A stretch of 45,431 nt of DNA from Hahella ganghwensis DSM 17046. GTDB taxonomy: Bacteria > Pseudomonadota > Gammaproteobacteria > Pseudomonadales > Oleiphilaceae. Made by a program: the position numbers and the translations under genes. Below the pieces are notes generated by a model. The model saw nothing but the letters and a program-made list of their open reading frames with translations. It made no database searches and was not told the origin of the DNA. Positions within the stretch are counted from its first letter, which is position 1. Each line of letters begins with the position of its first letter. This document shows, piece by piece, positions 12,591 to 31,150 of this stretch. The stretch is taken from contig NZ_AQXX01000088.1 in NCBI RefSeq assembly GCF_000376785.1, forward strand, positions 1 to 45,431, written 5' to 3'.

Positions 12591-12609
12591 AATAATGATA
12601 ATCATTCTC
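12591..12609 (+). promoter_or_regulatory. Fur box upstream of the ECF sigma factor
   Basis: AATAATGATAATCATTCTC matches the classical 19-bp Fur consensus at 17 of 19 positions, differing only at positions 1 and 17. It lies 56 bp before the sigma-factor start, the expected place for iron repression of a FecI-type regulator. This indicates that the sigma/anti-sigma pair, and through it the heme locus, is switched on by iron starvation. Confidence 0.85.
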
Positions 12610-12664
12610 ACTTATATCCACCACCAACCTTTCGGCACGACCGTAATTCATAGAGATTGAATGG

Positions 12665-13174
12665 ATGTTATCTGATCAGAATGAAGCTGTTTATGCTCTG
12701 TATAGCGAGCATAATGACTGGCTCAAGAGCTGGCTTCGTAAAAAACTTGGATGTTCACATAGTGCGGCTGATATGGCGCAGGACACATTTGTCAGGGTTC
12801 TCTCTGCCGCGCCCAATCTGTTTACGATAAAAGAGCCAAGAGCTTATCTGACGACGATTGCCGGGCGATTGATTATCGATAATGCCAGGCGCAAAAAGAT
12901 AGAACAGTCCTATCTGGAGACCTGGTCCGCTTTGTACGGCGAGCACGCGGTTGCCCCCTCTTCTCAGGATCTGGTTGAAGTAGTAGAACTGTTGGTAGAG
13001 GTCGCCAATTTACTTGAGGGACTGCCTGAGAAACCCCGCCAAGCCTTTCTCATGAGCCGACTTGAAGGGAAAGCCTATAGTGAAATCGGTGAGATTCTTG
13101 GCGTATCCGTCAGTATGGTGAAAAAATATGTCGCTCAGGCATTGCTGCATTGCCATGACTTTATGAAAACCTGA
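12665..13174 (+). CDS. fecI: ECF RNA polymerase sigma factor, FecI type
   Basis: This 169-residue protein has sigma region 2 (YALYSEHNDWLKSWLRKKLG with AADMAQDTFVRVL) and region 4 (LEGLPEKPRQAFLMSRLEGKAYSEIGEILGVS) with no extra domains, typical of FecI/HasI iron-starvation sigma factors. It would direct RNA polymerase to the receptor and downstream promoters once the surface signal is relayed by the FecR partner 45 bp downstream. In the Has system of Serratia the equivalent pair is HasI/HasS. The ATG at 12665 lies behind a Fur box, so transcription is probably iron-repressed. Confidence 0.85.
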   Translation: MLSDQNEAVYALYSEHNDWLKSWLRKKLGCSHSAADMAQDTFVRVLSAAPNLFTIKEPRAYLTTIAGRLIIDNARRKKIEQSYLETWSALYGEHAVAPSSQDLVEVVELLVEVANLLEGLPEKPRQAFLMSRLEGKAYSEIGEILGVSVSMVKKYVAQALLHCHDFMKT

Positions 13175-13219
13175 TTAAGAGCTCTGTTACCTTACTTAAT
13201 TGCTGCTACCTCACTAAAT

Positions 13220-14248
13220 ATGAACCATCACACCGAGCAAAGTGTCGTTAATGATCGCGAAGTAATCGAAAAGGCAGCGGAATGGCATGCCACTTTGACC
13301 TCCGGAGAAGCCACTCAAGATGAGCGTGAGGCATGCAATCGTTGGCGAAATGCCCACCCGGCTAACGAGGAGGCTTATCAGAAGCTTTACGCGCTATCCC
13401 ACCGGTTTGACTGCCTATCCCCTGAGATGCGCAAGCCAGTGGGTTCGGTGCTGAATGAAGTGCTCAAGGAAGATACGGTTCCCGTAACATCAGGATTTAA
13501 AGCCACGGTGCTTGTGCTCACGTTTCTCGTGGTCTCAATTCTTGGCGTGCAATCCTTGACTTCATCGTCGTTGGCGATTGACTACCATACCAGCGTGGGC
13601 GAGCGAAGGAGCATCACTTTGAGTGACGGCACTCAGTTGATACTTAATACCGATTCCGCTGTAAAACTGGCATTTGATGATTATGAGCGCCGGCTGTTGC
13701 TGCCTCATGGTGAGATTCTGGTAGAGGTTGCCCATGACCCGACAAGGCCGTTCGTCATCGAAACGTCTCAAGGAACTGCGCGAGCCCTTGGTACTCGTTA
13801 TAGTGTCCGGACTCTGGATGATGTAATGGATGTCGTTGTAACAGAGTCCAAGGTGGAAGTCTGTCGCAGTGAAAGTTCTTCTCTTGATTCCCCCTCCTGC
13901 GTGACAACTCATCAGGGCGAGATGGCCCGAGTGCACCACAACAGCGTTGAATGGTCGCAGCACCATGACACCTTTGGATCCACTGCCTGGAGCCAGGGAC
14001 GCCTGGTGGTGGATGAATGGCCTTTACCTCGTGTCTTGGAAGAGCTCAAACGTTACCGTCCTGGCATCATGCACTTTAACGCTGATGACCTTGCCGACAT
14101 AAAAGTTTCCGGTGTTTTTCCATTGGACGATACCGAACAGACACTGGATATTCTCAGCCAGAACCTGCCTGTTCAGGTAAATCGATTTACGCGTTTCATT
14201 ACACTTGTGCGTAAATTGCAAACCAAATTACACTTGCCGCCGGACTGA
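13220..14248 (+). CDS. fecR: FecR-family transmembrane anti-sigma regulator
   Basis: A 342-residue FecR/HasS-like protein. The cytoplasmic N-terminal domain (1-90) has the DUF4880 pattern AAEWHATLTSGEATQDEREACNRW...HPANEEAY. A single membrane helix is at about 95-113. The periplasmic FecR domain contains GERRSITLSDGTQLILNTDSAV (127-148) and ALGTRYSV, and a final STN-like/DUF4974 segment starts near 255. The family senses substrate-loaded receptor through the receptor's N-terminal signalling domain and controls its sigma factor. The receptor at 15667-18195 has such a domain, so the signalling chain is complete. No clear Shine-Dalgarno sequence precedes the ATG. Confidence 0.85.
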   Translation: MNHHTEQSVVNDREVIEKAAEWHATLTSGEATQDEREACNRWRNAHPANEEAYQKLYALSHRFDCLSPEMRKPVGSVLNEVLKEDTVPVTSGFKATVLVLTFLVVSILGVQSLTSSSLAIDYHTSVGERRSITLSDGTQLILNTDSAVKLAFDDYERRLLLPHGEILVEVAHDPTRPFVIETSQGTARALGTRYSVRTLDDVMDVVVTESKVEVCRSESSSLDSPSCVTTHQGEMARVHHNSVEWSQHHDTFGSTAWSQGRLVVDEWPLPRVLEELKRYRPGIMHFNADDLADIKVSGVFPLDDTEQTLDILSQNLPVQVNRFTRFITLVRKLQTKLHLPPD

Positions 14249-14565
14249 AAATTATTGACGAGAAAAAATTAAAATCGGGCTCCGTATGCTGCACCCGATG
14301 GATCTTTGTGCATCGTGATATAGCGGATGGCTAATGCTCTTACTCTTTCTCACCCTTGTATGAAAGTTCTGTATAACTGAGCCATAAACTCGTTATTTTT
14401 CGGCTACGCTTGCAAGTATTACTTATTAATACCTAACGACCCGACTGACTGAACTTTACGCTCTATCGTTCAGGAATACTCTGCAGTTCGTATGATGAGC
14501 CTCGTCTCAAGTCTGAAGGCTCACTCTTCTTCAGGCGACAATTAAAATAACCAGGAAGAAACGAC
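14249..14565. other. Intergenic region between fecR and the rhombotarget-type lipoprotein gene
   Basis: No gene is supported in 317 bp. A short inverted repeat, ATCGGG/CCCGAT (14274-14279 and 14294-14299), may form a weak hairpin after fecR. The region probably contains the promoter recognised by the upstream ECF sigma factor, but I cannot identify its elements by eye. Confidence 0.35.
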
Positions 14566-15465
14566 ATGCGAACTCACAAGAGTATTACGGCTTTGCTGCT
14601 AACGATTGCCATTACCTTCTTTATCCAAGGGTGTGCAACCAGCCCTAGAAATGTGGCATCTCAGGATATCGATCAGGTTCTCAATCCGGTCACAGATTCC
14701 CTGCTATCCAAAGAAAAAGCGCCTTTAGTATTTCCTGCCTCCGTAGGCATTCTCATGATCCCCTCTAATAATTCACTTAAGCTTCCGAACACAACATTAC
14801 GTTTGGCTGCCGACAGTCTAAAAAAGGAGCTGTTGAAGAATAGCCGCTATATCAACCGTGTGGCTATTGTGAACAATAGTGACCTTGGCAAGAAGTTTTC
14901 ACTTGAGGATATCAGACAGGCTTATGCGGTGGATATCGTCGCTGTGATCACCTTTGAGCAAGATCAGAGAAGCCGTCGCAGTGGCATAGCTGCCTTGTCA
15001 GATATCGCCGTGATTCCAGCGTTCACCGTTCCCACAGTCGAGCTCAAAACCACGTCTGTTGTTGAGGGAACCATCGTTCACGTTCCAAGCAATGCGGTCA
15101 TTTTTAGAACGACAGGAATAGATGATCGATCCACCAATATGCCCTCCTTTACTGCTCAGGAAAACGGAATGAGAGAGGAGTCCATTAAAGGATTAGCGGC
15201 TTCTGCGGAAAACTTTGGCATGGAAGTCAGCCAAGTCCTGACAGGGCTCACCAATTTCAGAATGTCGAATGCCGTTTCCATGAATGATGTTATTGGAGGT
15301 GACCTCACTTCAACTGAACAGTCCTCCGCCAACAAAAAAAAAGGGCCTGAAAACCAATGGGAACAAGTTAACGATTACAAAAGAACAGGTGGCACTACAA
15401 CTCCTTGGAATCTTATTGTATTGGTCTCGTTTTTTGCTCTGATCAAGAGAAGGTTTATCCGATAG
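14566..15465 (+). CDS. Rhombotarget-type lipoprotein with GlyGly-CTERM-like tail
   Basis: This 299-residue protein has a signal peptide ending at Cys23 (FFIQGC, a slightly irregular lipobox). The body carries the pattern of rhombotarget lipoproteins (PASVGILMIP, AYAVDIVAVITFEQDQRS). The C-terminus has GG at 275-276, a hydrophobic segment (WNLIVLVSFFALI) and a basic end (KRRFIR), the layout of a GlyGly-CTERM signal cut by rhombosortase. So both ends carry a processing signal. Its function is unknown. It lies between the regulatory genes and the HasR-like receptor and is closed by a good terminator, so it may have its own promoter. No rhombosortase gene is visible in the window. Confidence 0.72.
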   Translation: MRTHKSITALLLTIAITFFIQGCATSPRNVASQDIDQVLNPVTDSLLSKEKAPLVFPASVGILMIPSNNSLKLPNTTLRLAADSLKKELLKNSRYINRVAIVNNSDLGKKFSLEDIRQAYAVDIVAVITFEQDQRSRRSGIAALSDIAVIPAFTVPTVELKTTSVVEGTIVHVPSNAVIFRTTGIDDRSTNMPSFTAQENGMREESIKGLAASAENFGMEVSQVLTGLTNFRMSNAVSMNDVIGGDLTSTEQSSANKKKGPENQWEQVNDYKRTGGTTTPWNLIVLVSFFALIKRRFIR

Positions 15466-15475
15466 ATCCCCCGGG

Positions 15476-15514: not shown

Positions 15515-15666
15515 GGTTACACAAACTCCTGCCACCTTCTTGTTGCTAGGTGCTTCAAACTTTCCTCGCCCGAATAAATTCTAAAAAAACTTTACCTCTA
15601 CTGTCCCTTTCCGGATTTCGCACGTCATCACTAGTGTATCAACAGAGATGTAAATGCGAATTATTA

Positions 15667-18195
15667 ATGATTAGAAGATGTAAGTTCCTGGTTGTTCTGG
15701 GACTGATGCTGAGTTTTGCCAATCTGACTTGGGGAGAAGCGCCTGGATCATCGCAACGCCCCTCTTCGGGCTCGTCCGCGGTACCTCTGTATCAATTTGA
15801 TATTCCCGCCGGCCCCCTTGGTCCTGCGTTAAACCGGTTGGCGATGGAGGCGGGTCTGGTGATGTATTTTGATCCTTACCTGGTTCAGGGCAAGGAAACG
15901 ATGGGCATACAGGGGCGTTACTCCATCACCCAGGGATTCTCTGCGTTGCTGAAGGGGTCCGGACTCATCGCCATCCGCAGCGCTTCCGGGCATTACACAG
16001 TGAGCCCGGTGATCTCGGGTGAATCATCGCCATCAGAAGTGTTTGTGACATTGGACGCCCTGGAAGTCTATGCCAGCACAGAGACTGGTAAGGTCTACCA
16101 GACGCCCGCTGCAGTCAGCGTCGTTAGCCAGGAACAGATAAAGCGTCTGCCGCCCAGAAATACGTCCGATGTGCTCACTGCTGTCCCCGGTGTCAATACT
16201 TCTCAAAGTCGCCAGGACCCCGGAGTTTCAGTGAACATTCGTGGATTGCAGGACTTCGGACGGGTCAACATGATGATTGATGGCACCCGACAAAATTTCC
16301 AGCGCAGCGGCCATGGGTCTAACGGTGCTCTGTACATGGACCCTCAATTACTGGGAGGTGTAGAGGTATCCAAGGGGCCGTCGTCGACACTGGGCGGAGC
16401 AGCAGTCATTGGGGGCGTCGTAAACTTCCGGACACTGGAATTTGAAGACCTCGTATCGGACGACAAAGATTATGGCGGTCGTTTAAATGCCACCACAGGC
16501 AGCAACGCCTATCACTTTTCCGGCAGTTTGGCCGGCGCGGCCAGAATAACCGAGGATCTTGATCTGGTGATCGCTGCGGGCCGCAAAAATGTCGGCGCCT
16601 TTGAGAAGGGTCGACAGGGCGGCAATGCGGACAACGGAAGTTACTGGGAAGGCACCAGTCAGTATACCGGCCAGGATCAATGGTCAGGGCTGTTGAAAGG
16701 AACATGGCGTTTTACTGAGGAGCAACAGGTAAAACTGAGCTACATCGGCTTCAATGCCGACTTTGAAGAAGGTAGCAACACGGATGAAGGGGCCATCGAC
16801 AGCAAAAGCAGAATCCGAACGGATACCTTCCTGACCAACTATGAATGGTCCCCATCAACAGACTGGGTTGATCTGAAAAGCAGCCTCTATTATACCCGCA
16901 CCCGAAACGATCAGTACCGCCCGGAAACCCAGGATCCTTCAAACCCCTACGGGGAATTCAACGTACGTTATGAAACCAATACCCTGGGCGGAACATTGGT
17001 GAATCAGTCGCTACTTGATCTACCAGAATACGAGTCAATCATCACCTTCAACTACGGAACAGAGTTTTACTACGACTGGACCCGCCCACAAACAGAACAA
17101 CTCAGTGAAGGCGAAGGCCGCGCAGAGTGGATTTCAGGCCCCACACCCGAGGGCGATCGGTGGCTGACGAGTCTTTTTACCCGAACTGAATTTTCTCACG
17201 CTTCAGGATTGGATCTGATTGCCGGATTACGTTACGACTATTTCAGCCTGGAAGGCAATGGCGAAATGTATGTGGGCTCCATAGACAATCCACCGGGTGT
17301 TCGCCCTTCCTCCACAGCCATTTATACTGACTTCAATGTTGCCCGTCATCAGGGATATTTTTCTCCGACATTTACCGCTGCTTACCAGTTCAAGAATATT
17401 CAGGTTTTTGCCAATTACGGCCTGGGGATTCGTCCACCGTCGATCACCGAAACCCTCATGTGGGGCACGCACGTGGGGAACTCATTTCCTTTTTTCCCGA
17501 ATCCCGGACTGGAACCAGAGCGCTCTCATAATCTGGATGTCGGAATGAACATGCGTTGGCAGGCCCTGCTAGGTAACCAGGATCAATTGAATCTTAAGGC
17601 GGTGTGGTTTGATAACCGGGTGGACAACTACATCACTCAGGCTCAGATCATGGGTCCGGCATCCACCAACAGCAATTCAATGGCCGTCGCTTTCGTCAAT
17701 CTCGAAGATCGGGTAAGGAACTATGGCATCGAGTTTCAGGCCGAATATGAAAGCCGTTATTACTTTGCCGAATTCAGCCTGACCCGTACTCACAGTGATC
17801 TGGGACGTGGCGGCTATGATCCCTTCCCGCTGGGTAGCATTGTCGGATATCCACCTACTGATCATGGTGAAGCTAATGGTGGCGGTCTGATGTATGTCCC
17901 TCCTCCCAGTAAAAAGATTGTGTTTACCAATGGCCTCTATCTGCTTGACCGGTCACTGATCCTGGGGGCTCGGCTTCGTCTTGAGGACAACGAAGGACGC
18001 GGAGGAACGGCATACGAGAGCGTTGTCGACTGGGAAGTCTACGACCTCTGGCTGAGGTATGAGGCAAGCCACTGGCTGACATTAAATGTTGCCGTCGACA
18101 ACCTGACAGATCGCAATTACGCGGAACTTAACGGCACCTCTTATTGGATCGCCCCCGGCCGCACAGCGACAGCCACGATAACTCTGACTTACTGA
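15667..18195 (+). CDS. hasR: HasR-like TonB-dependent heme/hemophore receptor with signalling domain
   Basis: The 842-residue precursor has a signal peptide (1-23), then an STN signalling domain (about 41-115, YQFDIPAGPLGPALNRLAMEAG). A TonB-box-like LDALEVYAS follows, then a plug domain (NIRGLQDFGRVNMMIDGTRQ, VEVSKGPSS, GGVVNFRTL), and a 22-strand barrel ending in an aromatic residue (ITLTY). Plug motifs are those of the hemoglobin/heme receptor group. The heme-receptor FRAP/NPNL region is present as IRPPSITET and NPGLEPERS with His602 between them. Its STN domain pairs with the FecR protein upstream, and hasA lies downstream. The ATG at 15667 gives a proper signal peptide; an upstream GTG at 15550 would not. 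A weak Fur-like sequence overlaps 15655-15670. Confidence 0.88.
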   Translation: MIRRCKFLVVLGLMLSFANLTWGEAPGSSQRPSSGSSAVPLYQFDIPAGPLGPALNRLAMEAGLVMYFDPYLVQGKETMGIQGRYSITQGFSALLKGSGLIAIRSASGHYTVSPVISGESSPSEVFVTLDALEVYASTETGKVYQTPAAVSVVSQEQIKRLPPRNTSDVLTAVPGVNTSQSRQDPGVSVNIRGLQDFGRVNMMIDGTRQNFQRSGHGSNGALYMDPQLLGGVEVSKGPSSTLGGAAVIGGVVNFRTLEFEDLVSDDKDYGGRLNATTGSNAYHFSGSLAGAARITEDLDLVIAAGRKNVGAFEKGRQGGNADNGSYWEGTSQYTGQDQWSGLLKGTWRFTEEQQVKLSYIGFNADFEEGSNTDEGAIDSKSRIRTDTFLTNYEWSPSTDWVDLKSSLYYTRTRNDQYRPETQDPSNPYGEFNVRYETNTLGGTLVNQSLLDLPEYESIITFNYGTEFYYDWTRPQTEQLSEGEGRAEWISGPTPEGDRWLTSLFTRTEFSHASGLDLIAGLRYDYFSLEGNGEMYVGSIDNPPGVRPSSTAIYTDFNVARHQGYFSPTFTAAYQFKNIQVFANYGLGIRPPSITETLMWGTHVGNSFPFFPNPGLEPERSHNLDVGMNMRWQALLGNQDQLNLKAVWFDNRVDNYITQAQIMGPASTNSNSMAVAFVNLEDRVRNYGIEFQAEYESRYYFAEFSLTRTHSDLGRGGYDPFPLGSIVGYPPTDHGEANGGGLMYVPPPSKKIVFTNGLYLLDRSLILGARLRLEDNEGRGGTAYESVVDWEVYDLWLRYEASHWLTLNVAVDNLTDRNYAELNGTSYWIAPGRTATATITLTY

Positions 18196-18254: not shown

Positions 18255-19958
18255 GTGTTATTTTCATCATCCATTAGCGTCACTCGTCCTCGTTCGCGCC
18301 CTCGCTCGCTTCGGGGAACCAGGACAATATTCTTTGTCAAAAAACTGCTCTGTTCGATGATGTTGCTTGGGTTGGGAAATGCCGTTGCAGCAGATTTTTC
18401 CCCTGAAGTTCTGCATCGTTTTTCGGTGGAGGCAGCCACCGGCGGTACTGGCGAGCTGGTAGGAGCGAAGCCTCATACCCCGCCCGCATACAACCCTGTT
18501 GACGGCAGGCTCTATGGCGTCACGCCTGAAGGTGGATTGCTGGGCATCTACAGCACCCAATATCGTTTTACACCAGGCGCCGATATTCCTGACTATGAAG
18601 GCCGCTCCAATGAAGTGAGCGTCGTTGGAGGTTTTTATACTGGTTTGGTAGTTAACAGTGACGGTATCGTATTCGGTGGGGCCAATCCTCTGGTGGTTCC
18701 CTCCCCCTTCCCCTACCCGACAGCTGTTACCGGGCTTCTATTTCAATGGTCGGATATCGAAGGCATGAAAAATGCCTTTCCTGGCGAACCAACAAAAACC
18801 GAATATGGCAGCGCATTCGATTTACGGGGCCTGATGGACGTAGATATGGACGGCAATACCTATTTTGGCGGTGGCTCCGGCCGTGCCGGCATGGCGTTGT
18901 ACCGGCGTACTTCCGATGGAGAACTCCAACAGCTTGTCGATTTCTCACGTGCAGAATATGTGCAGGGGTCAGGATCTTCCAGCGTGTACCTAAAAGGCCA
19001 GTATCCGGCAGCGGTTCTCTTCAGTGATATTGATCGCGCCGTTTATGGAATAACCGTCCAGACGCAATCTGGCGGAGCCGGTGATCCAAATTCAGTCCCC
19101 CTTGGAGACGAGGCTGCCGGCACCTTGATTCGTATTGCTGAAGCGGACTTTACCCATGACGGTAGCAGCACGGTAGATGTCCTGCATACCTTTGCCAGGA
19201 ACGCCGAAGGTGAAATTCTGGCCAGTGATTCCGGGCAACACAGTCTTGTTGAAGTGGGTCATTGGCTCTACGGCACCACAAACAAAGCAATTTGGCGAAT
19301 CCGCAAAAATGAACCAGGCAGTTTCACCCTGTTGCATCGCTTCGGCAACGGAGAAGGCGTTGACGCAAATGACGATGGCAGCCAACCACATGGACCTTTG
19401 GTGTTGGCGGAGGATGGCCACCTTTACGGCACTACCCGAACGTCTTTCGCCAAAGGCAGCCCGGCGCAGGCCGGCACCCTGTTTCGTATACGACTGGGAT
19501 CGGAACCGGATCATTCCGACGACACCTATGAACAGCTTCATCAGTTTGATATCGAAACAGATGGCGCGTGGCCGGTCGGACTCACCCCAGGCCCTTCCGC
19601 CAATGGCATTCACACCCTTTACGGGGCCACAGCGCGAGGGGGAAGTACGGGCAACACCCTGACCAACACCAGCGCTGAAGGTCTCGGGACCGTTTACGCT
19701 TTGAACATTAAAATCCCCGGCAACCTGGCGCTGAACGTCGATCAGGAGGAAATCAACTATGGTGACAAAGTGAACCTCACCTGGAACGGCGACTATCTGG
19801 ACAACTGTATAGCCACAGGAGAGTGGGAAGGGGAAAAACTCGTCGACGGCACCGAAACCATTACTCCCAATCAGGTTGGTGAGGCGGTGTATATCCTCGA
19901 TTGTCAGGATATTCACGGTAACGACCTCACGGCAACCGCAAGGGTTCAGGTCAATTAA
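18255..19958 (+). CDS. GloVer-repeat surface protein with Ig-like domain; ends at an in-frame TAA before its anchor
   Basis: The 567-residue product has a long N-terminal leader (signal core VKKLLCSMMLLGLGNAVAA, about 34-52). About seven GloVer-type repeats follow (LYGVTPEGG, YFGGGSGRAGMALYR, LYGTTRTSFAKG...GTLFRI, LYGATARGGSTG...GTVYAL), probably forming a beta-propeller. An Ig-like domain with a Cys pair comes next (from about residue 488). Translation stops at TAA 19956-19958, but the same frame continues with a complete GlyGly-CTERM tail to 20117. The start is GTG 18255, with AAAGGAG 7 nt upstream. It is a paralogue of the 21079-23058 gene and lies between hasR and hasA. As read, the protein would be secreted without its anchor. 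Confidence 0.8.
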   Translation: MLFSSSISVTRPRSRPRSLRGTRTIFFVKKLLCSMMLLGLGNAVAADFSPEVLHRFSVEAATGGTGELVGAKPHTPPAYNPVDGRLYGVTPEGGLLGIYSTQYRFTPGADIPDYEGRSNEVSVVGGFYTGLVVNSDGIVFGGANPLVVPSPFPYPTAVTGLLFQWSDIEGMKNAFPGEPTKTEYGSAFDLRGLMDVDMDGNTYFGGGSGRAGMALYRRTSDGELQQLVDFSRAEYVQGSGSSSVYLKGQYPAAVLFSDIDRAVYGITVQTQSGGAGDPNSVPLGDEAAGTLIRIAEADFTHDGSSTVDVLHTFARNAEGEILASDSGQHSLVEVGHWLYGTTNKAIWRIRKNEPGSFTLLHRFGNGEGVDANDDGSQPHGPLVLAEDGHLYGTTRTSFAKGSPAQAGTLFRIRLGSEPDHSDDTYEQLHQFDIETDGAWPVGLTPGPSANGIHTLYGATARGGSTGNTLTNTSAEGLGTVYALNIKIPGNLALNVDQEEINYGDKVNLTWNGDYLDNCIATGEWEGEKLVDGTETITPNQVGEAVYILDCQDIHGNDLTATARVQVN

Positions 19959-20117
19959 ATCGACACGAATGATGGATCAGAAGGTGAAGACGACAACGGT
20001 GGTGCTTCCAGTGGCGGAGCTTCCGGTGGCGGCGCTATCAACCCCTTGATGATCCTGCTGCTGGGCCTGGCCGGAATCCTTGGCAGAACCTGCAAACACC
20101 CATCTGCCCCAAATTGA
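19959..20117 (+). other. In-frame GlyGly-CTERM tail beyond the stop codon of the GloVer gene
   Basis: Continuing in the same frame after TAA 19956-19958 gives 52 residues to TGA 20115-20117: an acidic linker, a Gly/Ser-rich stretch (GGASSGGASGGGAINP), a hydrophobic helix (LMILLLGLAGILG) and a basic end (RTCKH). This matches the tail of the paralogue downstream. The frame is undamaged, so only one codon separates the gene from a full-length anchored form. Confidence 0.85.
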
Positions 20118-23058: not shown

Positions 23059-24863
23059 AGGCCGCGACAGCCCGCGGAGCAATCCGCCAGGCATTATTGC
23101 TGCATAAGTCGGCCTTTCGCAGTGTGGGTGTTTTCAGTGCTGTTATCAATCTTCTCATGTTGGTGCCGGCCATTTATATGCTGCAGGTCTATGACCGGGT
23201 GCTGGCATCGGGCAATGGCTATACATTGTTAATGCTGACCTTATTGGCGACAGGTCTCTACATGTTGATGGGAGCACTGGAATGGGTACGAAGCCTGCTG
23301 GTGATCCGTATCGGTGATCAACTTGATTATCATCTCAGCGCAAGGGTCTACAACGCCAGTTTTCGTCATCAGCTCAATGGCGCCCAAACCGACGCTTCAC
23401 AAGGCGTCAATGATCTGAACCAGGTGCGTCAGTTTATGACGGGCAGCACCTTGTTCGCTTTTTTCGATGCGCCCTGGTTTCCGTTTTACCTACTGGTGAT
23501 TTTTCTGTTTCATCCATGGCTGGGGAGTCTCGCCCTGGCTGGAGGAATGCTGCTATTGATCCTGGCCTGTGTCAATGAGCGCTGGTCAAAAAACTCATTA
23601 CAAAAAGCCAGTGAATATATGGCGTCATCCAGTCAGTTGGCCGCCAGCCAATTGCGTCATGCGGAAACGATTGAAGCCATGGGGCTCCTAGGCCAGTTGC
23701 GTCAACGCTGGCAACGCATTCATCGCCAATCTCTCCTTCATCAGAGTGACGCCAGCGAACGCTCGGCCCTTATCAATGCGATAACCAAAACCACTCGGAC
23801 GGCGCTGCAATCTTTTATGCTCGGTCTCGGTGCTTACCTGGCACTGCAAGGAGAAATCACTCCGGGCATGATGGTCGCAGGTTCCATTCTGGTTGGGCGT
23901 ATGCTCTCTCCTGTGGAACAGTTGGTGAGTGTCTGGCGTCAATGGGCCAATACTCAGATTGCCAAGCGCCGCTTGCAAGCGCTGTTAGACGCCTATCCTC
24001 CAAAATCGGCCGGTCTGTCTCTGGCCAAGCCTAAAGGTGCCCTACGAGTAGAAGGCGTTAGTGTGATTGCGCCGGGGGGTAAAATACCAAGCCTGGTGAA
24101 CGTCTCATTTACTTTAGGTGCTGGAGAGGTACTTGGGGTTGTCGGCGCATCTGGATCTGGAAAATCCTCTCTGTTGCGCGCCCTTGTGGGTGCCTGGCCG
24201 CCCAGGTTGGGGAACATTCGTCTGGACGGGGCCGATATTCGGCAATGGGACAAGTCCGAACTGGGGCCAAGTATCGGCTATCTGCCACAGGATGTTTCCC
24301 TCTTCAGCGGTACCGTCGGAGAAAATATCGCCCGGTTTGGCGATCTGGATACTGGCAAAATTGTGGAAGCCGCCAAACTGGCAGGGGTTCATGATTTAAT
24401 TTTAACGCTCCCTGGTGGCTACGACACCATGCTTGCGGAGGGGGGAGCCGGACTATCCGGTGGACAGAAGCAAAGAATCGCCCTGGCCAGAGCCCTGTAT
24501 GGCAAACCTTCTCTCGTCGTACTGGATGAGCCCAACGCCAATCTCGATGAAACCGGTGAAGCCGCATTGGCCAATGCTATCCGACAATTAAAATCCTCAG
24601 GCCAGACCGTAATTCTGGCCACTCATCGGGTCGGCGTACTGGCGCATACCGATAAGATTCTGGCCTTACGCGGCGGGGAACTGCAATCCTTCGATTCAAC
24701 GTCCAAGGTTTTATCCGCACTAAAAGGGCAAAAGGCTCAGACAGGCACTCCCCCTTCGTCACAGCAACCATCGCCTTCGACGCCACCAGACTCCGGCAAT
24801 CCCGGCGTGAAGATCTCTTATCGCTTCGGCGCTCAGACATCGGTACCTGAGGCTCAGGAATAA
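23055..24863 (+). CDS. hasD: HasD-like type I secretion ABC transporter (PrtD family)
   Basis: The 602-residue protein fuses a membrane domain (helices from about 23 to 300) to an ATPase domain. It has Walker A GASGSGKSS with Lys370, the signature LSGGQ at 467-471, and Walker B ending LDEPNANLD with Asp491/Glu492. It lacks an N-terminal peptidase or C39-like domain, as in the PrtD/HasD group that exports proteins with C-terminal signals. The expected substrate is HasA. A Pro/Ser-rich tail of about 40 residues follows the ATPase core. The start overlaps the preceding GloVer gene by 4 bp; hasE follows 69 bp later. Confidence 0.9.
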   Translation: MKAATARGAIRQALLLHKSAFRSVGVFSAVINLLMLVPAIYMLQVYDRVLASGNGYTLLMLTLLATGLYMLMGALEWVRSLLVIRIGDQLDYHLSARVYNASFRHQLNGAQTDASQGVNDLNQVRQFMTGSTLFAFFDAPWFPFYLLVIFLFHPWLGSLALAGGMLLLILACVNERWSKNSLQKASEYMASSSQLAASQLRHAETIEAMGLLGQLRQRWQRIHRQSLLHQSDASERSALINAITKTTRTALQSFMLGLGAYLALQGEITPGMMVAGSILVGRMLSPVEQLVSVWRQWANTQIAKRRLQALLDAYPPKSAGLSLAKPKGALRVEGVSVIAPGGKIPSLVNVSFTLGAGEVLGVVGASGSGKSSLLRALVGAWPPRLGNIRLDGADIRQWDKSELGPSIGYLPQDVSLFSGTVGENIARFGDLDTGKIVEAAKLAGVHDLILTLPGGYDTMLAEGGAGLSGGQKQRIALARALYGKPSLVVLDEPNANLDETGEAALANAIRQLKSSGQTVILATHRVGVLAHTDKILALRGGELQSFDSTSKVLSALKGQKAQTGTPPSSQQPSPSTPPDSGNPGVKISYRFGAQTSVPEAQE

Positions 24864-24932: not shown

Positions 24933-26084
24933 ATGACTACTGCAATGAGCACTGAAAAGCACACAACAAGCGCACCAGGTTCGCAACCCATCTATGCAGA
25001 CTCGATTCAGGAGAGCCCCCGTGCTCTGTCAGAATATCCGGATAGCAGACGATATAGCCGAATAGGCTGGATGATTGTGATAGCTGGCTTCGTCGGCTTT
25101 GTCGCCTGGGCAGCATTGGCGCCGCTGGACCGTGGCGTGGTGGTTGAAGGCGCTGTCACCGTCGCGGGCAATCGAAAAGCGGTGCAGCACCCTAGTGGCG
25201 GTGTTATCAAAAACATTCTGATACAGGAGGGTGACTACGTTCAACAGGGGCAAATACTGGTGTTGATGGACAGCACCGTCCCGCAGGTCAAAGTTCAAGC
25301 TGCGCAAAGTCATTATTTTACCGCTCTGGCCACTGAAGCCCGACTGATGGCAGAGAAAGAAGGCCTTGCAGAAATCGACTTTCCCGCCTTATTGCAAAAC
25401 TTGGAATACGCTGCCCCAGGGAAGGAAACACAGGACAGCGCCGCGCTCCCAAGCCCAAGCCTTGCCACCACTATTCGACAGACTCAAGAACTTCAACGAC
25501 AGTTGTTTATCAGTCGTCGACAGGCCAGCTACCAGCAAGATCTGCGGACGCAATTGGCCGAGATTCGCCTGGACATTGAAAGTCAGCGTGAGCGAAAGAT
25601 CACAGCAGAGCAGACTCTATTACAGAGCCGTATTATTGCCCCGGTGGCTGGCCGTGTAGTGGATTTAAAGGTCTTCACAGAAGGAGGCGTGGTCAGCGCA
25701 GCAGAAAAACTGATGGAAATTGTGCCTGATAACCAGCCTTTACTAGTAGAAGCACGTCTTCCGTTGGATGTGGTGGATAGCATGAGACTGCAACAGCCTG
25801 TGGACCTTATGTTTACGGCTTTTAACCGCAGCCAAACACCAAAGGTCACTGGTAAGGTGGTACAACTCTCTGCCGATCGCCTGACCGACCCAGCCACTCA
25901 ACAGGCTTATTACGGTTTAAAAATTGAGGTGACTGGGAGTGCCATGGCGGAGCTGAATGGGTTAAAGATTATTCCCGGTATGCCAGTGCAGGCTTTTATC
26001 CGCAACGGTGAACGCTCATTGCTGAGCTATCTTTTTAAACCGTTGCTTGATCGCATACCTCTCGCAATGGCGGGGGAAGTATAA
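24933..26084 (+). CDS. hasE: HasE-like periplasmic adaptor (HlyD/PrtE family), shortened coiled coil
   Basis: A 383-residue membrane-fusion protein linking the HasD transporter to the outer-membrane channel. It has a cytoplasmic tail, one membrane helix (about 46-66), a lipoyl half-motif (VQHPSGGVIKNILIQEGDYVQQGQIL), a helical hairpin, then the second half-motif (SRIIAPVAGRVVDLKVFTEGGVV) and a beta-barrel domain. PrtE/HasE proteins are usually about 440 residues. The deficit lies in the helical hairpin (about 125-225), part of which is a Pro/Ser-containing linker rather than heptads. The remaining motifs are intact, so it is probably functional. No clear Shine-Dalgarno sequence precedes the start. 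Confidence 0.87.
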   Translation: MTTAMSTEKHTTSAPGSQPIYADSIQESPRALSEYPDSRRYSRIGWMIVIAGFVGFVAWAALAPLDRGVVVEGAVTVAGNRKAVQHPSGGVIKNILIQEGDYVQQGQILVLMDSTVPQVKVQAAQSHYFTALATEARLMAEKEGLAEIDFPALLQNLEYAAPGKETQDSAALPSPSLATTIRQTQELQRQLFISRRQASYQQDLRTQLAEIRLDIESQRERKITAEQTLLQSRIIAPVAGRVVDLKVFTEGGVVSAAEKLMEIVPDNQPLLVEARLPLDVVDSMRLQQPVDLMFTAFNRSQTPKVTGKVVQLSADRLTDPATQQAYYGLKIEVTGSAMAELNGLKIIPGMPVQAFIRNGERSLLSYLFKPLLDRIPLAMAGEV

Positions 26085-27434
26085 ATGCGCTGGCTAACGA
26101 CCATTTGGGTGCTTTTCGCCTCTTTCTGCTCGAACGCGCTGGATTATCAGGAAGCCTATACTTTGGCGCTACACCAAAACCCAGACTACCTTGCCGCCCA
26201 GGAAGAGCACAAAGCTGCGCAGGAATATATCGCACGAGGCCGTGCGGGCCTGCTTCCCTCGTTATCTTTGAACTACAGCCAGGCGCAGAATTGGTCGGAT
26301 GTCGAGCAGCAATCCGGTACCTTTGCGAATAGTGAAAAGCGAGACTATCAGAGCCATAACGCAAGCCTGGTTTTGCAGCAACCGCTGTTTGACTACAGTG
26401 CGTGGGCTGCCTATCAGAAAGCCAAACAGCAGACGCTGGAATCGGATTTTCGTCTGATTGGCAAAAACTCCGCCTTGGCCATGACAGTCCTCGAAGCGTT
26501 TACCAAAGCTTTACTGGCGCGAGATCAGTTGGACCTGGCGAAACAGCAACTGTCGTCCTATGAGGCTTTACTGGTCCGGAAGGAAGCCCTGAAAGACCAT
26601 GGCGAAGGAACTCAGACTGAAGTACTGGAAACCCAATCCCGCCTGTATATCGCTGAAACCGAACTCATTGAAGCTCAGGATGAATTTGAGTTGTCGCTTA
26701 GAGAACTGTCCAGCCTGATTGAGCAGCCAGTAGCCATGGCCGCCCTTCCCCGTTTAAAGGAATCGCAGAAAGATCTGCCCATGCTGTCTAACGATATAAG
26801 ACGCTGGCTTAGTCTGGCCTTGAGTCAGAATCCTGAATTACGTGCCCTGAACCATAAAGTCAGGGCGGCCAGTCATGAGGTGGACGCCCAGCGAGGCGGA
26901 CATCTTCCCAGAGTCAGCCTCTATGCAACGGCAAGAGACACTGAATCAGATACAGAAAACACTTACCAACAACGGTATGACACCCATAGTGTGGGCATCA
27001 GAATTCAGATGCCACTGTACTCCGGTGGCAAAGTTTCTTCCGCCACCAGGCAGGCCAGTGCAACCAAATCACAATTTCGCTATGAACTGGATGCCAGACG
27101 GCAGGAAATAAAGCTCCAGATCAGACGCTACTACCGAAAGTGCATGAGCAGCCTGTCCAGCCTTAAAGCGCGTTCGTTTGCTGTTATCAGCGCTGAGGCA
27201 CTGGTGGAGGCCACACAAAAAAGTGTGCAGGGAGGCGAACGGGACAACCAGGACATTCTGAATGCCGAGCGACAGCTTTTCCAGGCCAGACGTGATCTGG
27301 TAGAGACCCGATATGACTACCTGAAATCCTGGCTTGGGCTTTATGCCGTCGCCGGAATGCTCGCAGAAGAACATATTCAGCTGGTATCCAGCCAGTTTCA
27401 GACAGCCAAAGAACCTAGTGCCCTCTCCCAATAA
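26085..27434 (+). CDS. hasF: TolC-family outer-membrane channel of the Has exporter
   Basis: This 449-residue outer-membrane efflux protein has a signal peptide (MRWLTTIWVLFASFCSNA) and the two internal repeats typical of TolC. Motifs include YTLALHQNPDYLAAQEEHKAAQEYIARGRAGLLPSLSL in the first repeat and LSQNPELRALNHKVRAASHEVDAQRGGHLPRVSL in the second. It forms the exit duct for HasA with HasD and HasE. Its ATG follows the hasE stop with no gap, so the two are translationally coupled. A dedicated channel gene in the has cluster differs from Serratia, where the channel gene lies elsewhere. Confidence 0.88.
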   Translation: MRWLTTIWVLFASFCSNALDYQEAYTLALHQNPDYLAAQEEHKAAQEYIARGRAGLLPSLSLNYSQAQNWSDVEQQSGTFANSEKRDYQSHNASLVLQQPLFDYSAWAAYQKAKQQTLESDFRLIGKNSALAMTVLEAFTKALLARDQLDLAKQQLSSYEALLVRKEALKDHGEGTQTEVLETQSRLYIAETELIEAQDEFELSLRELSSLIEQPVAMAALPRLKESQKDLPMLSNDIRRWLSLALSQNPELRALNHKVRAASHEVDAQRGGHLPRVSLYATARDTESDTENTYQQRYDTHSVGIRIQMPLYSGGKVSSATRQASATKSQFRYELDARRQEIKLQIRRYYRKCMSSLSSLKARSFAVISAEALVEATQKSVQGGERDNQDILNAERQLFQARRDLVETRYDYLKSWLGLYAVAGMLAEEHIQLVSSQFQTAKEPSALSQ

Positions 27435-27579: not shown

Positions 27580-28215
27580 GTGACTGTTCATGTCCAGGTT
27601 AAAGACTTCCCGGCATCAAAAGCCATCGTATCAAACAGCAATAAACCGCTTTCCGTATTGCTGAAAGAGAAAACTACCACCGACCATGAAAGTCTGGATC
27701 GTCGCATCATGCGTGCCGACCCCTTCGGTGATCCGGGACGTTACCAGGGATTCCTCAAAATGCAGTACTGCTTTCATTGGATGACGGCCCCGCTCTACCA
27801 CATTGAATCACTAAATCAATGGATTCCCAATCTGTCAGACTCTTGTCGGCTGGAACAGGTGATTCAGGACTGCCTGGATCTGGGCATCACCAAGCATCAA
27901 CTGGAAGAAATGGCACTAAAACTGAAACCCGCAGCAGTGAACAAGGTGGCGGCATTAGGTTGGCTCTACACACTGGAGGGCTCTAATCTTGGAGCTGCAT
28001 TTCTGTTCAAACACGCCAAAGCCATCGGTTTCTCAGCGACCTATGGTGCTGCACATCTGGCCGGCCACAGTGAGGGACGAGGACGTCACTGGCGTATGTT
28101 CAAATCCTGCCTTGACGCCATCCCCCTCAACGACGATGACATCGCCATGGCCTGTGCCGGCGGTCAATCAGCCTTCCAATATGTTCGCAATCTGGTGGAA
28201 CAACATCTGCCATGA
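27580..28215 (+). CDS. hemO: Biliverdin-producing heme oxygenase, HemO/PigA type
   Basis: A 211-residue cytoplasmic all-helical heme oxygenase. The N-terminal helix LKEKTTTDHESLDRRIM carries the candidate proximal heme ligand His36, and the distal region shows ALGWLYTLEGSNLGAAFLF, the conserved EGSNLGA element. The enzyme opens imported heme to release iron, CO and biliverdin. The start is GTG 27580 with a weak GAGG upstream. It follows the channel gene by 145 bp and overlaps the DUF454 gene by 4 bp. Together with hasA/hasR it completes the path from heme capture to iron release. Confidence 0.87.
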   Translation: MTVHVQVKDFPASKAIVSNSNKPLSVLLKEKTTTDHESLDRRIMRADPFGDPGRYQGFLKMQYCFHWMTAPLYHIESLNQWIPNLSDSCRLEQVIQDCLDLGITKHQLEEMALKLKPAAVNKVAALGWLYTLEGSNLGAAFLFKHAKAIGFSATYGAAHLAGHSEGRGRHWRMFKSCLDAIPLNDDDIAMACAGGQSAFQYVRNLVEQHLP

Positions 28216-28769
28216 GATTGTTAAAGGGACGGAATGCGGGTTCCTCAGTGTTTAGATCTCCTGGCTATAGCGCCTTTGCATACCGGATGTTGGCTTACCT
28301 GAGTCTTGCCATCGCCGCGATTGGCGTCGTCACACCCGGGTTGCCGACAACTGAATTCGTACTTCTGGCTGCCTGGGCGTCGGCAAAAGGGTCGCCGAGA
28401 CTGCATCAATGGATGAAGAGCCACACGGTTTTTGGACCGATCATCGAAAACTGGCAGGAGCACGGCGCGATCAGTCGTCATACCAAATGGCTTGCCAGCA
28501 TGATGATGGGGGTTGCGGTTCTATTAATGTTGCTCTGGTCGCTTCACCCGCTCTGGATTCTGACGGCAGTGGTTACGATGCTTTTGGGCTCAATCTGGAT
28601 GTGGACACGACCTGAAACAATGACTCAGGCCCCTCTGGATGATACAGGTAAGGAATCTGAAGCATATTTGAGGACGCCATATTTGAGGACACCCAAGCAA
28701 ACGCTGCCCGACAGAACGCTGCCCGACAGAACGCTGCCCGACAGAACGCCTTCAAAAGGAATTCATTGA
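28212..28769 (+). CDS. DUF454 (YbaN-like) inner-membrane protein with repetitive C-terminus
   Basis: The 185-residue protein has DUF454 features: the LAYLSLAIAAIGVVTPGLPTTEFVLLAAWASAKGSPRLHQWMKSH block and further hydrophobic helices near 90-130. DUF454 genes often accompany heme oxygenase genes, but their role is not established. The C-terminal tail is unusual: two copies of YLRTP, then three copies of TLPDR, encoded by 15-bp tandem DNA repeats. The gene overlaps hemO by 4 bp at its start and the ExbB gene by 4 bp at its end (if that gene starts at TTG 28766), so the three are co-translated. Confidence 0.82.
   Translation: MRLLKGRNAGSSVFRSPGYSAFAYRMLAYLSLAIAAIGVVTPGLPTTEFVLLAAWASAKGSPRLHQWMKSHTVFGPIIENWQEHGAISRHTKWLASMMMGVAVLLMLLWSLHPLWILTAVVTMLLGSIWMWTRPETMTQAPLDDTGKESEAYLRTPYLRTPKQTLPDRTLPDRTLPDRTPSKGIH
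28670..28748 (+). repeat. 15-bp tandem repeats in the 3' end of the DUF454 gene
   Basis: Two copies of TATTTGAGGAC plus 4 bp are followed by three exact copies of ACGCTGCCCGACAGA at 28701-28715, 28716-28730 and 28731-28745. The period of 15 keeps the frame, so copy number could vary by slippage without disrupting the protein. Confidence 0.9.
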
Positions 28770-29893
28770 ATAGCATGAACAAGAAAATACGGTTAGGCGA
28801 ATGTGTTTTCCTGGTTGGCCTGGCTCTTTCTGCCATGGCAGCAGGTGCAGTCGATAATGGCATTACCAGGGCTGCTTCCGACACCGCGGCATCAGAGAAT
28901 TTTGCCTCACATACCTCGTTGACGGAATCTCCTGCGATAAAAAATCAGGCGCCCGAGGCCGAAGAAGCCAACACCAGAACAGTTGATATCGCTGAATCAG
29001 AGACCAAAGCTCTCGCGTCTACCGACAGCAAAAAGACAAGACCTGACGGAGTCGTCACAGACAACAAACTGGTACTGCACGACCTTTCACCTTTGACCAT
29101 GTTCCGTAAGGCCGATTGGGTGGTACAGAGCGTTATGGTGATTTTGATTTGGGCGTCGGTCCTTAGTTGGACTGTGTGGCTGGTAAAAACCTTGCAGTTG
29201 CGTTCAGCCCGTATCCGCACCACCAGAATGATCAGAACCCTTAAGAATATGGACCGGCTGGAGGAGGCCTTTGATAGCCTACTGGCTGTCTACATCCCTG
29301 AACGACAAATGCTGGAGGCCGCCCAGCGTGAGGTATCTGTAAGACAAGAAGCCTGTATAAAGCAGAGCGCCCTCTGGCCAACAGATAGCAGAGCCTCTTT
29401 GCCTTCCGAAGGAATCAAGGAGCGAGTTTCCCTCCGTCTGACCAATGCTGAAACACAGCAAACCGCAAGTCTCGGCAGGGGGATTGGCATCCTCGCGTCC
29501 GTTAGCTCCACAGCGCCCTTTGTCGGACTTTTCGGTACAGTCTGGGGCATTATGAACAGCTTTATCGGTATAGCCAGCACCCAGACGACCAACCTGGCGG
29601 TGGTCGCTCCCGGCATTGCCGAGGCCTTGCTTGCCACCGCAGCCGGGTTGATCGCCGCAATTCCTGCTGCGCTGTTTTACAACCTTTTTTCCCGCAAACT
29701 CGCTGATTATCGGCGCAATGTGGCCGAAATCTCCTCGGAACTGGTTGTACTTCTGAGTCGTCACCTTGACCAACAACTGCTTGAGACTCAGGGGCCTGAT
29801 TTCGTCAACCGGGACTCTACCATGAGAAAAGTTTCAAGTAATTCCGCGGAGGATCAGCGCCATGGCCATGTTGCTGCCGCAAAAACAGGATGA
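28766..29893 (+). CDS. exbB: ExbB-family proton channel protein with periplasmic N-terminal extension
   Basis: This 375-residue MotA/TolQ/ExbB protein is longer than E. coli ExbB (244). Residues 4-30 form a signal-like hydrophobic segment, followed by about 80 low-complexity residues (probably periplasmic) and the three-helix core: VMVILIWASVLSWTVWLVKTL (about 118-138), SSTAPFVGLFGTVWGIMNSFIGIAS, and a last helix AEALLATAAGLIAAIPAALFYN. ExbB with ExbD energises TonB using the proton gradient. I chose TTG 28766 because AAAAGGA lies 5 nt upstream; ATG 28775 is the alternative. It overlaps exbD. Confidence 0.85.
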   Translation: MNSMNKKIRLGECVFLVGLALSAMAAGAVDNGITRAASDTAASENFASHTSLTESPAIKNQAPEAEEANTRTVDIAESETKALASTDSKKTRPDGVVTDNKLVLHDLSPLTMFRKADWVVQSVMVILIWASVLSWTVWLVKTLQLRSARIRTTRMIRTLKNMDRLEEAFDSLLAVYIPERQMLEAAQREVSVRQEACIKQSALWPTDSRASLPSEGIKERVSLRLTNAETQQTASLGRGIGILASVSSTAPFVGLFGTVWGIMNSFIGIASTQTTNLAVVAPGIAEALLATAAGLIAAIPAALFYNLFSRKLADYRRNVAEISSELVVLLSRHLDQQLLETQGPDFVNRDSTMRKVSSNSAEDQRHGHVAAAKTG

Positions 29894-30293
29894 TTATCCG
29901 GAAAATCATGATATCAACGTCACACCTTTTATTGATGTCATGTTGGTGTTACTGATTATTTTTATGGTCGTTGCGCCTTTGTCCACCGTGTCAGTGAACG
30001 TGGATTTGCCTTCATCTACGGCCGAACCTCAAGTGCAGGAGAACGACCCTGTGATTCTGACGCTGAACACTGATGGGACACTGCTGCTGGGAGAGGATAG
30101 AAGGGTTTCTCGCCCCGAACTGTCAGAGATCCTGAATACCGCTACCCAGAATGACAAGCAACAGGTGATCTTTATTCAGGCCGACAAACGTGTGGATTAC
30201 GATTCCCTGATGAGTTTGCTTAATGACTTGCGCGGCGCTGGCTATCTCAAAATTGCTCTGATGGGATTGGAGCATTCCACTGCCGCCAGATGA
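29862..30293 (+). CDS. exbD: ExbD, TonB-energising transport protein
   Basis: A 143-residue ExbD with a short cytoplasmic tail, one membrane helix preceded by the conserved NVTPFIDVMLVLLIIFMV, and a periplasmic domain. Asp25 is the conserved proton-carrying residue. It overlaps the end of exbB and, by 4 bp (ATGA), the start of tonB. GGAGG lies upstream of the ATG. Its place in the heme operon indicates that the system carries its own energising complex. Confidence 0.92.
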   Translation: MAMLLPQKQDDYPENHDINVTPFIDVMLVLLIIFMVVAPLSTVSVNVDLPSSTAEPQVQENDPVILTLNTDGTLLLGEDRRVSRPELSEILNTATQNDKQQVIFIQADKRVDYDSLMSLLNDLRGAGYLKIALMGLEHSTAAR

Positions 30294-31150
30294 AGAATGA
30301 CGCTCAAGCCCTGCCCCATCGTTTCTTGAGATCCGCCACTGTTCATTGGATCGGAGCGTTTGTGGCGATACTTCTGTGCCATGCTGGCATTGCCTTTACC
30401 TTGCTGCTAAAGCCCGCCATTCATAGGCCCGCCGCCGTATCCACTGCCATCCCTGTCATGATGAGTGTTGTGGTAAGCTCGCCTTCACAGGTATTGAACG
30501 ACACTCAGAAGGCAAAGACCGTTTCAGAGCCAACCACCAAAACAGAGAGCCCCCAAAAACAAAAATCAAAACCAGTCCCTACCAACCCTCTTCCCCAAAT
30601 GGAGCCCTCTATAACAGACTCTGCCGACATTTATTTACCAAAACGAAAAGACTTCAAAACAGACACGGATGAGGCGGATAAAACGAGTGAAAAGATTTCG
30701 CCTGACATAAATGATGAAAAACCTACGCCAACCCGTGAGCCTGAATGGGATAAGCCTGAGTCAACATCCCCCCCATCTGCCCCCCGGTCAACCCAGGTTT
30801 CGCAGGAGACAGACCTGTCCGTAGCGCCTGCCCAGAGCTACAGTGTGGCGAAAATTGCGACGGCAAAATACCACTGGCAAAGTGAGTTAATGGCTTACCT
30901 CGCCCGAGAAAAGCACTACCCACGACTCTCGCGAAAGAAAAGAGAACAAGGAACCGTCATAGCGCGCTTTGTGATTAATCGGCAGGGCCAGTTACTTCAG
31001 GCAGAACTGTTGCAACCCACTCAATACACCGCTCTTAACCAGGAGGCTATCAATCTTTTACATCGTGCATCTCCTCTGCCTCCTCCCCCAAATGAAGTTC
31101 CCGGAGCTGAAGTGGAGCTAGTTGTTCCGATTGAGTTTCTGATTCGTTGA
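30290..31150 (+). CDS. tonB: TonB energy transducer
   Basis: The 286-residue protein has an N-terminal membrane anchor (VHWIGAFVAILLCHAGIAFTLLL, about 17-40), a long Pro/Lys/Ser-rich spacer across the periplasm (50-185), and the TonB C-terminal domain from about 205 (YLAREKHYPRLSRKKREQGTVIARFVINRQG, ending VELVVPIEFLIR). It transmits force from ExbBD to outer-membrane receptors, here presumably the HasR-like protein. It is the last gene of the block that begins at hasR. Confidence 0.9.
   Translation: MKNDAQALPHRFLRSATVHWIGAFVAILLCHAGIAFTLLLKPAIHRPAAVSTAIPVMMSVVVSSPSQVLNDTQKAKTVSEPTTKTESPQKQKSKPVPTNPLPQMEPSITDSADIYLPKRKDFKTDTDEADKTSEKISPDINDEKPTPTREPEWDKPESTSPPSAPRSTQVSQETDLSVAPAQSYSVAKIATAKYHWQSELMAYLAREKHYPRLSRKKREQGTVIARFVINRQGQLLQAELLQPTQYTALNQEAINLLHRASPLPPPPNEVPGAEVELVVPIEFLIR

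Follow-up and report, generated by a model that had tools for sequence, protein, structure and literature searches.

A has heme-acquisition locus of Hahella ganghwensis with two conserved GloVer-family genes flanking hasA

The known has operon has been described as hasISRADEB (PMC11633176) or HasRADEF (PMC3475125). Here, we analyze a complete has locus located on the plus strand, at positions 12665-31150, of a 45,431-nt stretch of DNA (contig NZ_AQXX01000088.1, assembly GCF_000376785.1; hereafter the window) from Hahella ganghwensis DSM 17046. Like the Has systems of Serratia (hasISRADEB) and Pseudomonas (hasRADEF), it encodes sigma and anti-sigma factors, a signalling HasR receptor with heme histidines, the hemophore HasA, a type I exporter and its own TonB. 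Unlike these systems, it features two conserved genes for GloVer-family proteins, here termed GloV1 and GloV2, that flank hasA, as well as genes for heme oxygenase, a DUF454 protein and ExbBD in the same block. Loci of the has type without GloVer genes were also encountered in this analysis (L054 and L073-L076).

Outside the Has systems, comparable arrangements are found where a receptor works with a surface-exposed partner. In the XusAB system of Bacteroides, the gene for an iron-uptake receptor likewise lies next to a gene for a predicted beta-propeller surface partner; XusB is a seven-bladed propeller acting as a lid on the TonB-dependent transporter XusA (PMC13142918). XusB, however, is a siderophore-binding DUF4374 lipoprotein from Bacteroidota, whereas the GloVers belong to another family, are two different proteins, bear GlyGly-CTERM-like tails and are associated with a heme receptor. 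HpuAB, HphA/HphR and further heme receptors with surface partners or hemophores also pair a TonB receptor with a surface-exposed accessory protein dedicated to heme or hemoproteins but, unlike the GloVers, make use of lipoproteins or Slam-exported proteins (see PMC8560813 and PMC3475125). With VesB and other GlyGly-CTERM proteins of V. cholerae the GloVers share a tripartite C-terminal tail and the presence of a rhombosortase in the genome, while they differ from them by the lack of a detected protease or nuclease domain and by the linkage to a heme receptor. No such surface partner of a heme receptor is known to be a GloVer protein. In the open-licence literature, no paper was found for the GloVer names and, as far as titles and the beginnings of abstracts of the matches listed reveal, none of these describes GloVer-like proteins in a has operon.

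All named genes lie on the plus strand, within the block that an earlier note on this DNA had delimited. GloV2 (21079..23058; likely start ATG 21079) is clearly a GloVer protein (TIGR03803, 111.1 bits, cut-off 44), with a beta-propeller-like body, an Ig-like domain and a GlyGly-CTERM-like tail. GloV1 (18255..19958; likely start GTG 18255) lies just under the same cut-off (39.8 bits) and comprises a predicted beta-propeller followed by an Ig/PKD-like domain. Signal peptides were recognized by eye in both proteins.

The pairing of GloVer genes with hasA, which the earlier note had put forward from this one sequence, was found to be conserved when co-occurrence was checked in other genomes; a lack of conservation, which that note had named as refuting, was not observed. 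Among 390 genomes sampled from the order, eight encode HasA and seven a GloVer protein; all seven GloVer-positive genomes are HasA-positive with adjacent genes, i.e., GloVer is present in 7/8 HasA-containing vs. 0/382 HasA-free genomes (Fisher 3e-14, uncorrected for kinship), the first-look GloVer candidates having been scored only in part in candidate-rich genomes. The eighth HasA-positive genome (G586) possesses a cluster without GloVer. In a class sample of 369 genomes, HasA occurs in the window genome only, and GloVer there and in three others. Within the window's genus (seven genomes), HasA and GloVer are restricted to the window genome, and its five GloVer matches all fall inside the locus. 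The genus of G578, Alloalcanivorax and kin as judged by DNA in common with named contigs, is represented by 13 genomes, seven of which are GloVer-positive and exhibit the full order HasR-GloV1-HasA-GloV2. Among 108 genomes of Pseudoalteromonas, the genus of G797, HasA was detected in eight and full-length GloV2 (>900 bits) in the same eight and in 0/100 others, while in a ninth GloV2-matching genome (G862) the match covers nothing but the Ig-like domain at the C-terminal end of the profile. A HasA-anchored scan of species genomes with two short patterns, which favours close relatives and under-samples classical HasA, yielded 19 loci. GloV2 follows directly downstream of HasA in 15 of them, and GloV1 resides between HasR and HasA in 13/13 loci with upstream DNA present. 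The four loci devoid of GloVer stem from Moritella and three Pseudomonas genomes, and their HasA proteins are at most 44% identical to that of the window. Taken together, the arrangement spans Alloalcanivorax/Alcanivorax, a Saccharospirillaceae metagenome-assembled genome (MAG), the window's genus and Pseudoalteromonas.

By position, the GloVer genes belong to the has operon, as proposed, and would be transcribed with it. Both the gene order HasR-GloV1-HasA-GloV2-HasD and the overlap between gloV2 and hasD are kept across clusters. The overlap noticed earlier measures 4 bp indeed (ATGA at 23055-23058), and the hasD start codon can overlap the gloV2 stop codon in 16/16 clusters, by 4 bp (ATGA) in 13 and by 1 bp in three (L058, L062 and L071, the GloV2 end of L062 being uncertain). 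HasR and GloV1 are separated by 7-59 bp in the clusters compared or overlap when the longest frame is used. Upstream of the sigma factor gene, a Fur-box-like site (12591..12609) matches the consensus in 17/19 positions, with 0 such matches expected in 100 shuffles. Matches of at least 13/19 are located near the sigma factor start in 13/14 main GloVer-type clusters examined; L061, with 7/19, has an over-long called sigma factor start. Two Pseudomonas clusters score 12, which is near chance.

Judged by its sequence, the window HasA (20310..20963; PF06438, 44.7 bits, cut-off 26.3) is a true member of the HasA family. It matches HasAp structures in the PDB with E=8e-11 in a sequence search, a C-terminal type I secretion signal is discernible by eye, and residues H41, Y100 and H108 are invariant in 8/8 aligned HasA proteins. 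Y100, H108 and H41 correspond to the heme ligands Tyr75, His83 and His32 of known HasA, the equivalence of H41 and His32 being alignment-dependent, since the phmmer alignment with HasAp puts that region elsewhere. The receptor (15550..18195, probably starting at about 15664) is of the HasR type with a signalling (STN) domain (TIGR01785, 474 bits, cut-off 317) and aligns with HasR in the PDB (5c58_A) over 800 residues (phmmer, E=1.7e-95). The heme histidines of HasR are His189 and His603. In the pairwise alignment, His189 is aligned and His603 is off by one column; in the multiple alignment, 19/20 receptors have a histidine in the His603 column (exception L050). Equivalents of both histidines are present in all 14 main receptors aligned. 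The window locus would thereby qualify as a Has system by a HasA-family protein with ligands, a HasR with signalling domain and histidines, and a type I exporter.

Two genomes, G578 and G764, contain a second locus (L055 and L056, respectively) encoding GloV1 and GloV2 together with a sigma factor, FecR and a HasR-like receptor (737-746 bits). No match to HasA or to the exporter was found within the 20 kb examined around either of them, and the single HasA match of each genome lies in its main locus. Both HasA-less receptors possess equivalents of His189 and His603, and the Fur-box scores are 16 of 19 for L056 and 10 of 19 for L055. In the receptor tree, GloVer-linked HasR proteins form one branch (support 98) with the HasA-less receptors inside, and classical HasR proteins form the other (99). 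GloV1 and GloV2 constitute two branches as well (99 each), and both include the copies from the HasA-less loci. Because the HasA-less loci group with the GloVer-linked branches, receptor, GloV1 and GloV2 look like an older unit from which HasA can be lost. Moreover, it is apparently the receptor, and not HasA, to which the GloV1/GloV2 pair belongs, as two loci keep all three without HasA or exporter. The comparisons show that a HasR-clade receptor and its sigma/anti-sigma factors are inherited with GloV1 and GloV2, and usually also with HasA and a type I exporter. That two genes for predicted surface-anchored propeller proteins recur in this arrangement in unrelated marine bacteria suggests that an established iron-uptake system has a functional part not described so far.

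Regarding the function of this part, the most likely reading, to which we attach about even probability, is a GloVer-type Has system in which surface propellers capture heme or hemoproteins for HasR, much as suggested by the analogy with XusB. Iron starvation, via Fur, and heme signalling, via HasI/HasS, would switch on the operon; HasA would leave the cell through HasDEF and scavenge heme, and GloV1 and GloV2 would enter the periplasm by means of their signal peptides. A rhombosortase would then process the GlyGly-like tails, and type II secretion would bring the GloVers to the surface. Such a route of surface display by GlyGly-CTERM, rhombosortase and the type II secretion system has been demonstrated for VesB (PMC6219818), and sorting of GlyGly-CTERM proteins by rhombosortase and type II secretion is also backed by PMC13393428. 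At the surface, the propellers could serve HasR by capturing ligands or by forming a lid, as XusB does on XusA, so that heme, holo-HasA or a hemoprotein would be kept beside the receptor and not lost by diffusion. Any of these three may be the ligand; the HasA-less loci argue against HasA as the only one. For the same reason, docking of HasA, a role suggested in the earlier note, is no longer the simplest one, as two paralogous loci combine receptor, GloV1 and GloV2 without HasA and exporter; HasA keeps its place among the possible ligands, and L055 and L056 weaken docking of HasA as the sole role.

The AlphaFold2 (AF2) model of GloV1 (predicted local distance difference test, pLDDT, 80; predicted template modelling score, pTM, 0.82) contains 28 strands and then an Ig-like domain; 28 strands, i.e., 7 x 4, would be compatible with a seven-bladed propeller. 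The GloV2 model (pLDDT 76, pTM 0.78) is nearly all-beta with 30 strands and a C-terminal helix (residues 630-646) in a low-confidence stretch. The two GloVers contain 8 and 9 copies of a Y/F-G motif, of which roughly seven look regular on visual inspection. When the profiles were compared with PDB sequences, nothing was found for GloV2 at E<=1, and the Ig/PKD-like part of GloV1 matched KIAA0319-like protein (two chains, best E=3e-4). Rhombosortase (TIGR03902) is encoded in the window genome (G000:C91, 143 bits, cut-off 84) and exceeds the cut-off in 17/17 GloVer-positive genomes tested, the L058 genome not being included. It is present in one out of five HasA-positive, GloVer-negative genomes, namely in Moritella and not in G586 and the three Pseudomonas genomes.

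In the window, the GlyGly-CTERM-like tail of GloV1 lies behind a stop codon. The GloV1 open reading frame (ORF) ends with TAA at 19956-19958, and the tail (19959..20117 including TGA at 20115-20117; TIGR03501, 15.7 bits, cut-off 15.5) is encoded in frame by the 52 codons that follow (19959-20114). Body and tail share one frame in 13/13 GloV1 genes of the HasA-anchored scan as well as in L051 and L145, and the gap to hasA is 192 bp counting the tail and 351 bp without it, compared with 90-203 bp in 13 other clusters. Since the tail of the relatives is in frame and the tail-inclusive spacing agrees with theirs, the in-frame stop is either derived in this strain or a sequencing error. VesB without an intact tail is released from the cell (PMC6219818), and, by analogy, GloV1 of this strain would be released and not anchored if the stop codon is real. 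The assignment of GlyGly-CTERM-like tails to GloV1, GloV2 and the rhombotarget-type lipoprotein alike, as originally made, is therefore to be corrected for GloV1 and also for the lipoprotein, the tail of which matches no sorting model.

A number of observations weigh against capture by rhombosortase-displayed surface propellers or against the association on which it builds. Neither of the translated GloVer proteins of the window carries a tail above the TIGR03501 cut-off: the GloV2 tail scores 10.9 bits, and that of GloV1 is located behind the stop. Two of eight GloVer tails scored with this model pass, i.e., the window GloV1 tail and that of L061 GloV1 (18.0 bits); five are found at 10.9-15.3 bits, with 12.6-15.3 for the four from relatives, and L058 GloV2 is unmatched. 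The tails of L058 GloV1, L061 GloV2 and L070 GloV1 pass the MYXO-CTERM or LPXTG model instead. Rhombosortase is not specific, as it is present in 6/7 genomes of the window's genus with GloVer in one only, and the predicted propeller is assigned from repeats, strand count and family. The three other GloVer-positive genomes of the class sample, G108, G193 and G316, lie outside the order and are without HasA match, and the ORFs kept from the 20-kb regions of G108 and G193 matched neither HasR nor HasA. The order, G578-genus, Pseudoalteromonas and HasA-anchored samples share genomes and sister species, and the Fisher values overstate the case because sister species are not independent and the samples overlap. 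The receptor tree stems from a quick method, with long branches flagged. Fur-box matches as good as those near the sigma factor gene occur elsewhere in L065 (4/62 pieces) and L066 (2/62 pieces). Finally, partial Mantel correlations (GloV1-HasA r=0.38, GloV1-GloV2 0.42, HasA-GloV2 -0.03) failed to separate co-evolution of GloVers and HasA from the HasE control (0.41 with GloV1 and 0.49 with GloV2).

Four Alloalcanivorax species (L063, L064, L065 and L051) differ strongly in the segment GloV1-HasA-GloV2, which forms a hypervariable island between conserved HasR and HasD. Nucleotide identities amount to 89.9-95.8% for HasR and 91.9-97.5% for HasD, and to 62.4-73.9% for GloV1, 75.2-80.0% for HasA and 61.7-87.2% for GloV2. 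Among L063, L064 and L065, synonymous divergence (dS) is 0.16-0.36 for HasR and HasD, 0.80-1.03 for GloV1, 0.76-1.09 for HasA and 0.40-1.25 for GloV2, and the ratio of nonsynonymous to synonymous divergence (dN/dS) in the latter three genes is 0.15-0.34. A high dS along with a low dN/dS suggests that divergent alleles were substituted for one another and that the genes are not decaying. For L060/L061 and L067/L069, the pairwise comparison showed no such island. In six Pseudoalteromonas clusters, the conservation of GloV1 and GloV2 (mean identity 69.8 and 73.0%) falls only moderately short of that of the neighbouring HasR, HasA and HasD (81.4, 82.3 and 84.8%). A wider reading, which we hold tentatively and with somewhat less confidence than the capture function itself, is that one class of heme receptors of marine gammaproteobacteria uses a rhombosortase-displayed propeller pair as an extracellular capture head, a counterpart of SusD, XusB or HpuA from another family and with another sorting route, that HasA joins it as an optional third component and that GloV1-HasA-GloV2 serves as an allele-exchange cassette diversifying between conserved receptor and exporter genes.

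Alternatively, the GloVers could be tethers for HasA, i.e., surface docks that retain the hemophore near the cell and deny it to other cells. The location of hasA between gloV1 and gloV2 in each main cluster with upstream DNA agrees with such a role, as does the Alloalcanivorax island, which varies as if three exposed proteins change together; yet two loci maintain receptor, GloV1 and GloV2 without HasA, no correlation between HasA and GloV2 is left in the residual distances (r=-0.03) and the island is missing from two of the pairs compared, which leaves tethering a rather unlikely explanation. Similarly doubtful is the idea that the GloVers, as enzymes or adhesins, release heme or attach to a heme-rich surface and are co-regulated with heme uptake without contacting HasR or HasA. 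While the named GlyGly-CTERM proteins of V. cholerae are mostly hydrolases (PMC13393428) and the rapid divergence of the sequences suggests an external partner, searches of the GloVers against Pfam and NCBIfam (E<=0.01) detected no catalytic family, and neither kind of locus separates the receptor from GloV1 and GloV2.

Assistance in HasA secretion or folding would be in line with the overlap of gloV2 and hasD in 16/16 clusters, by which gloV2 is apparently translationally coupled to hasD. We consider it improbable, as GloVer-free has loci with HasA and exporter exist (L054, L073-L076), HasA-less loci retain the GloVers without an exporter, and a type I path would not be expected of proteins with signal peptides and sorting-type tails; classical HasA is known to be secreted without GloVers. 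That the GloVer genes are mere hitchhikers in the operon of a single strain has next to no probability even though HasA and GloVer occur in 1/7 genomes of the genus only, because order and overlaps are shared by Alloalcanivorax, Alcanivorax, the Saccharospirillaceae MAG and Pseudoalteromonas and whole-gene dN/dS is 0.07-0.34 in GloV1 and GloV2 (pairs with computable dS); a chance neighbourhood in one strain is ruled out by the conservation across genomes.

If surface propellers indeed capture heme or hemoproteins for HasR, some members of a family for which there is no more than the name 'choice-of-anchor tandem repeat' proteins would receive a function, TonB-dependent heme receptors would gain surface partners of a new class, and nutrient capture would be tied to the GlyGly-CTERM/rhombosortase route, for which secreted hydrolases have been the main object of study. 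It also matters for understanding how, in open water, a hemophore that can diffuse away still benefits the cell that made it.

The remaining genes of the locus, all on the plus strand, were identified as follows. It starts with a FecI/HasI-type ECF sigma factor (12665..13174; TIGR02937, 73.3 bits, cut-off 42.9; Sigma70_r2/r4) and a FecR/HasS-type anti-sigma factor (13220..14248; PF04773, 80.1 bits). Downstream of gloV2, the exporter components HasD (ATPase, 23055..24863; TIGR01842, 737 bits), HasE (membrane fusion protein, 24933..26084; TIGR01843, 284 bits) and HasF/TolC (outer membrane channel, 26085..27434; TIGR01844, 315 bits) all score over the respective cut-offs. They are followed by heme oxygenase (27580..28215; PF01126, 71.1 bits), the DUF454 membrane protein (28212..28769; PF04304, 117 bits), ExbB (28766..29893; TIGR02797, 250 bits), ExbD (29862..30293; TIGR02803, 160.5 bits) and a TonB/HasB-type energy transducer matched at its C-terminus (30290..31150; TIGR01352, 60.7 bits).

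The gene for the rhombotarget-type lipoprotein (14566..15465, plus strand), regarded as part of the system in the earlier note, does not belong to its conserved components. Among the clusters annotated, it is located between FecR and HasR in the window only and is unmatched in every other one, the FecR-HasR interval being absent from the contigs of L062, L063 and L072; the protein also misses the curated cut-off of TIGR04179 (127.2 vs. 150 bits). In G004, the sole relative within the genus that has a homologue, the surrounding 20 kb contain no match to HasR, HasA or GloVer and a weak sigma factor match only.

Several further occurrences of HasA and GloVer deserve mention. No match to HasA was obtained in plasmids and viral contigs, and the GloV2 search of plasmids returned four records with distant GloVer proteins (25-29% identity). 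A contig of a 'Paracidovorax' MAG (L062) features a GloVer-type cluster from HasA onward with an odd GloV2 end, reflecting either transfer or a binning error; the binning is doubtful. Paracidovorax is a betaproteobacterial genus. As a divergent case, G508 encodes a HasA-like protein, one GloVer and HasD/HasE, and its receptor falls on the classical side of the tree. In L050, a HasA-like protein with a longer C-terminus (9222-10133) precedes a single divergent GloVer, HasD and HasE; this C-terminus resembles RTX repeats. One Pseudoalteromonas genome has an extra GloV2 copy behind HasE (L068:15763-17640), and at a similar position another contains a GloV2 remnant with two stops (G836:C1:4819417-4819671). 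A stand-alone GloVer with a GlyGly-like tail by eye is encoded in L108 (G108:C21, 10339-11703), where no heme genes were found nearby. Behind the has locus of the window, a reprolysin-like (M12B) metallopeptidase (32266-34851) likewise ends in a GlyGly-CTERM-like tail (14.6 bits, cut-off 15.5), and the small protein encoded before it (31526-32251) resembles a stand-alone propeptide, with 44% identity over 151 residues to the N-terminal region of the protease.

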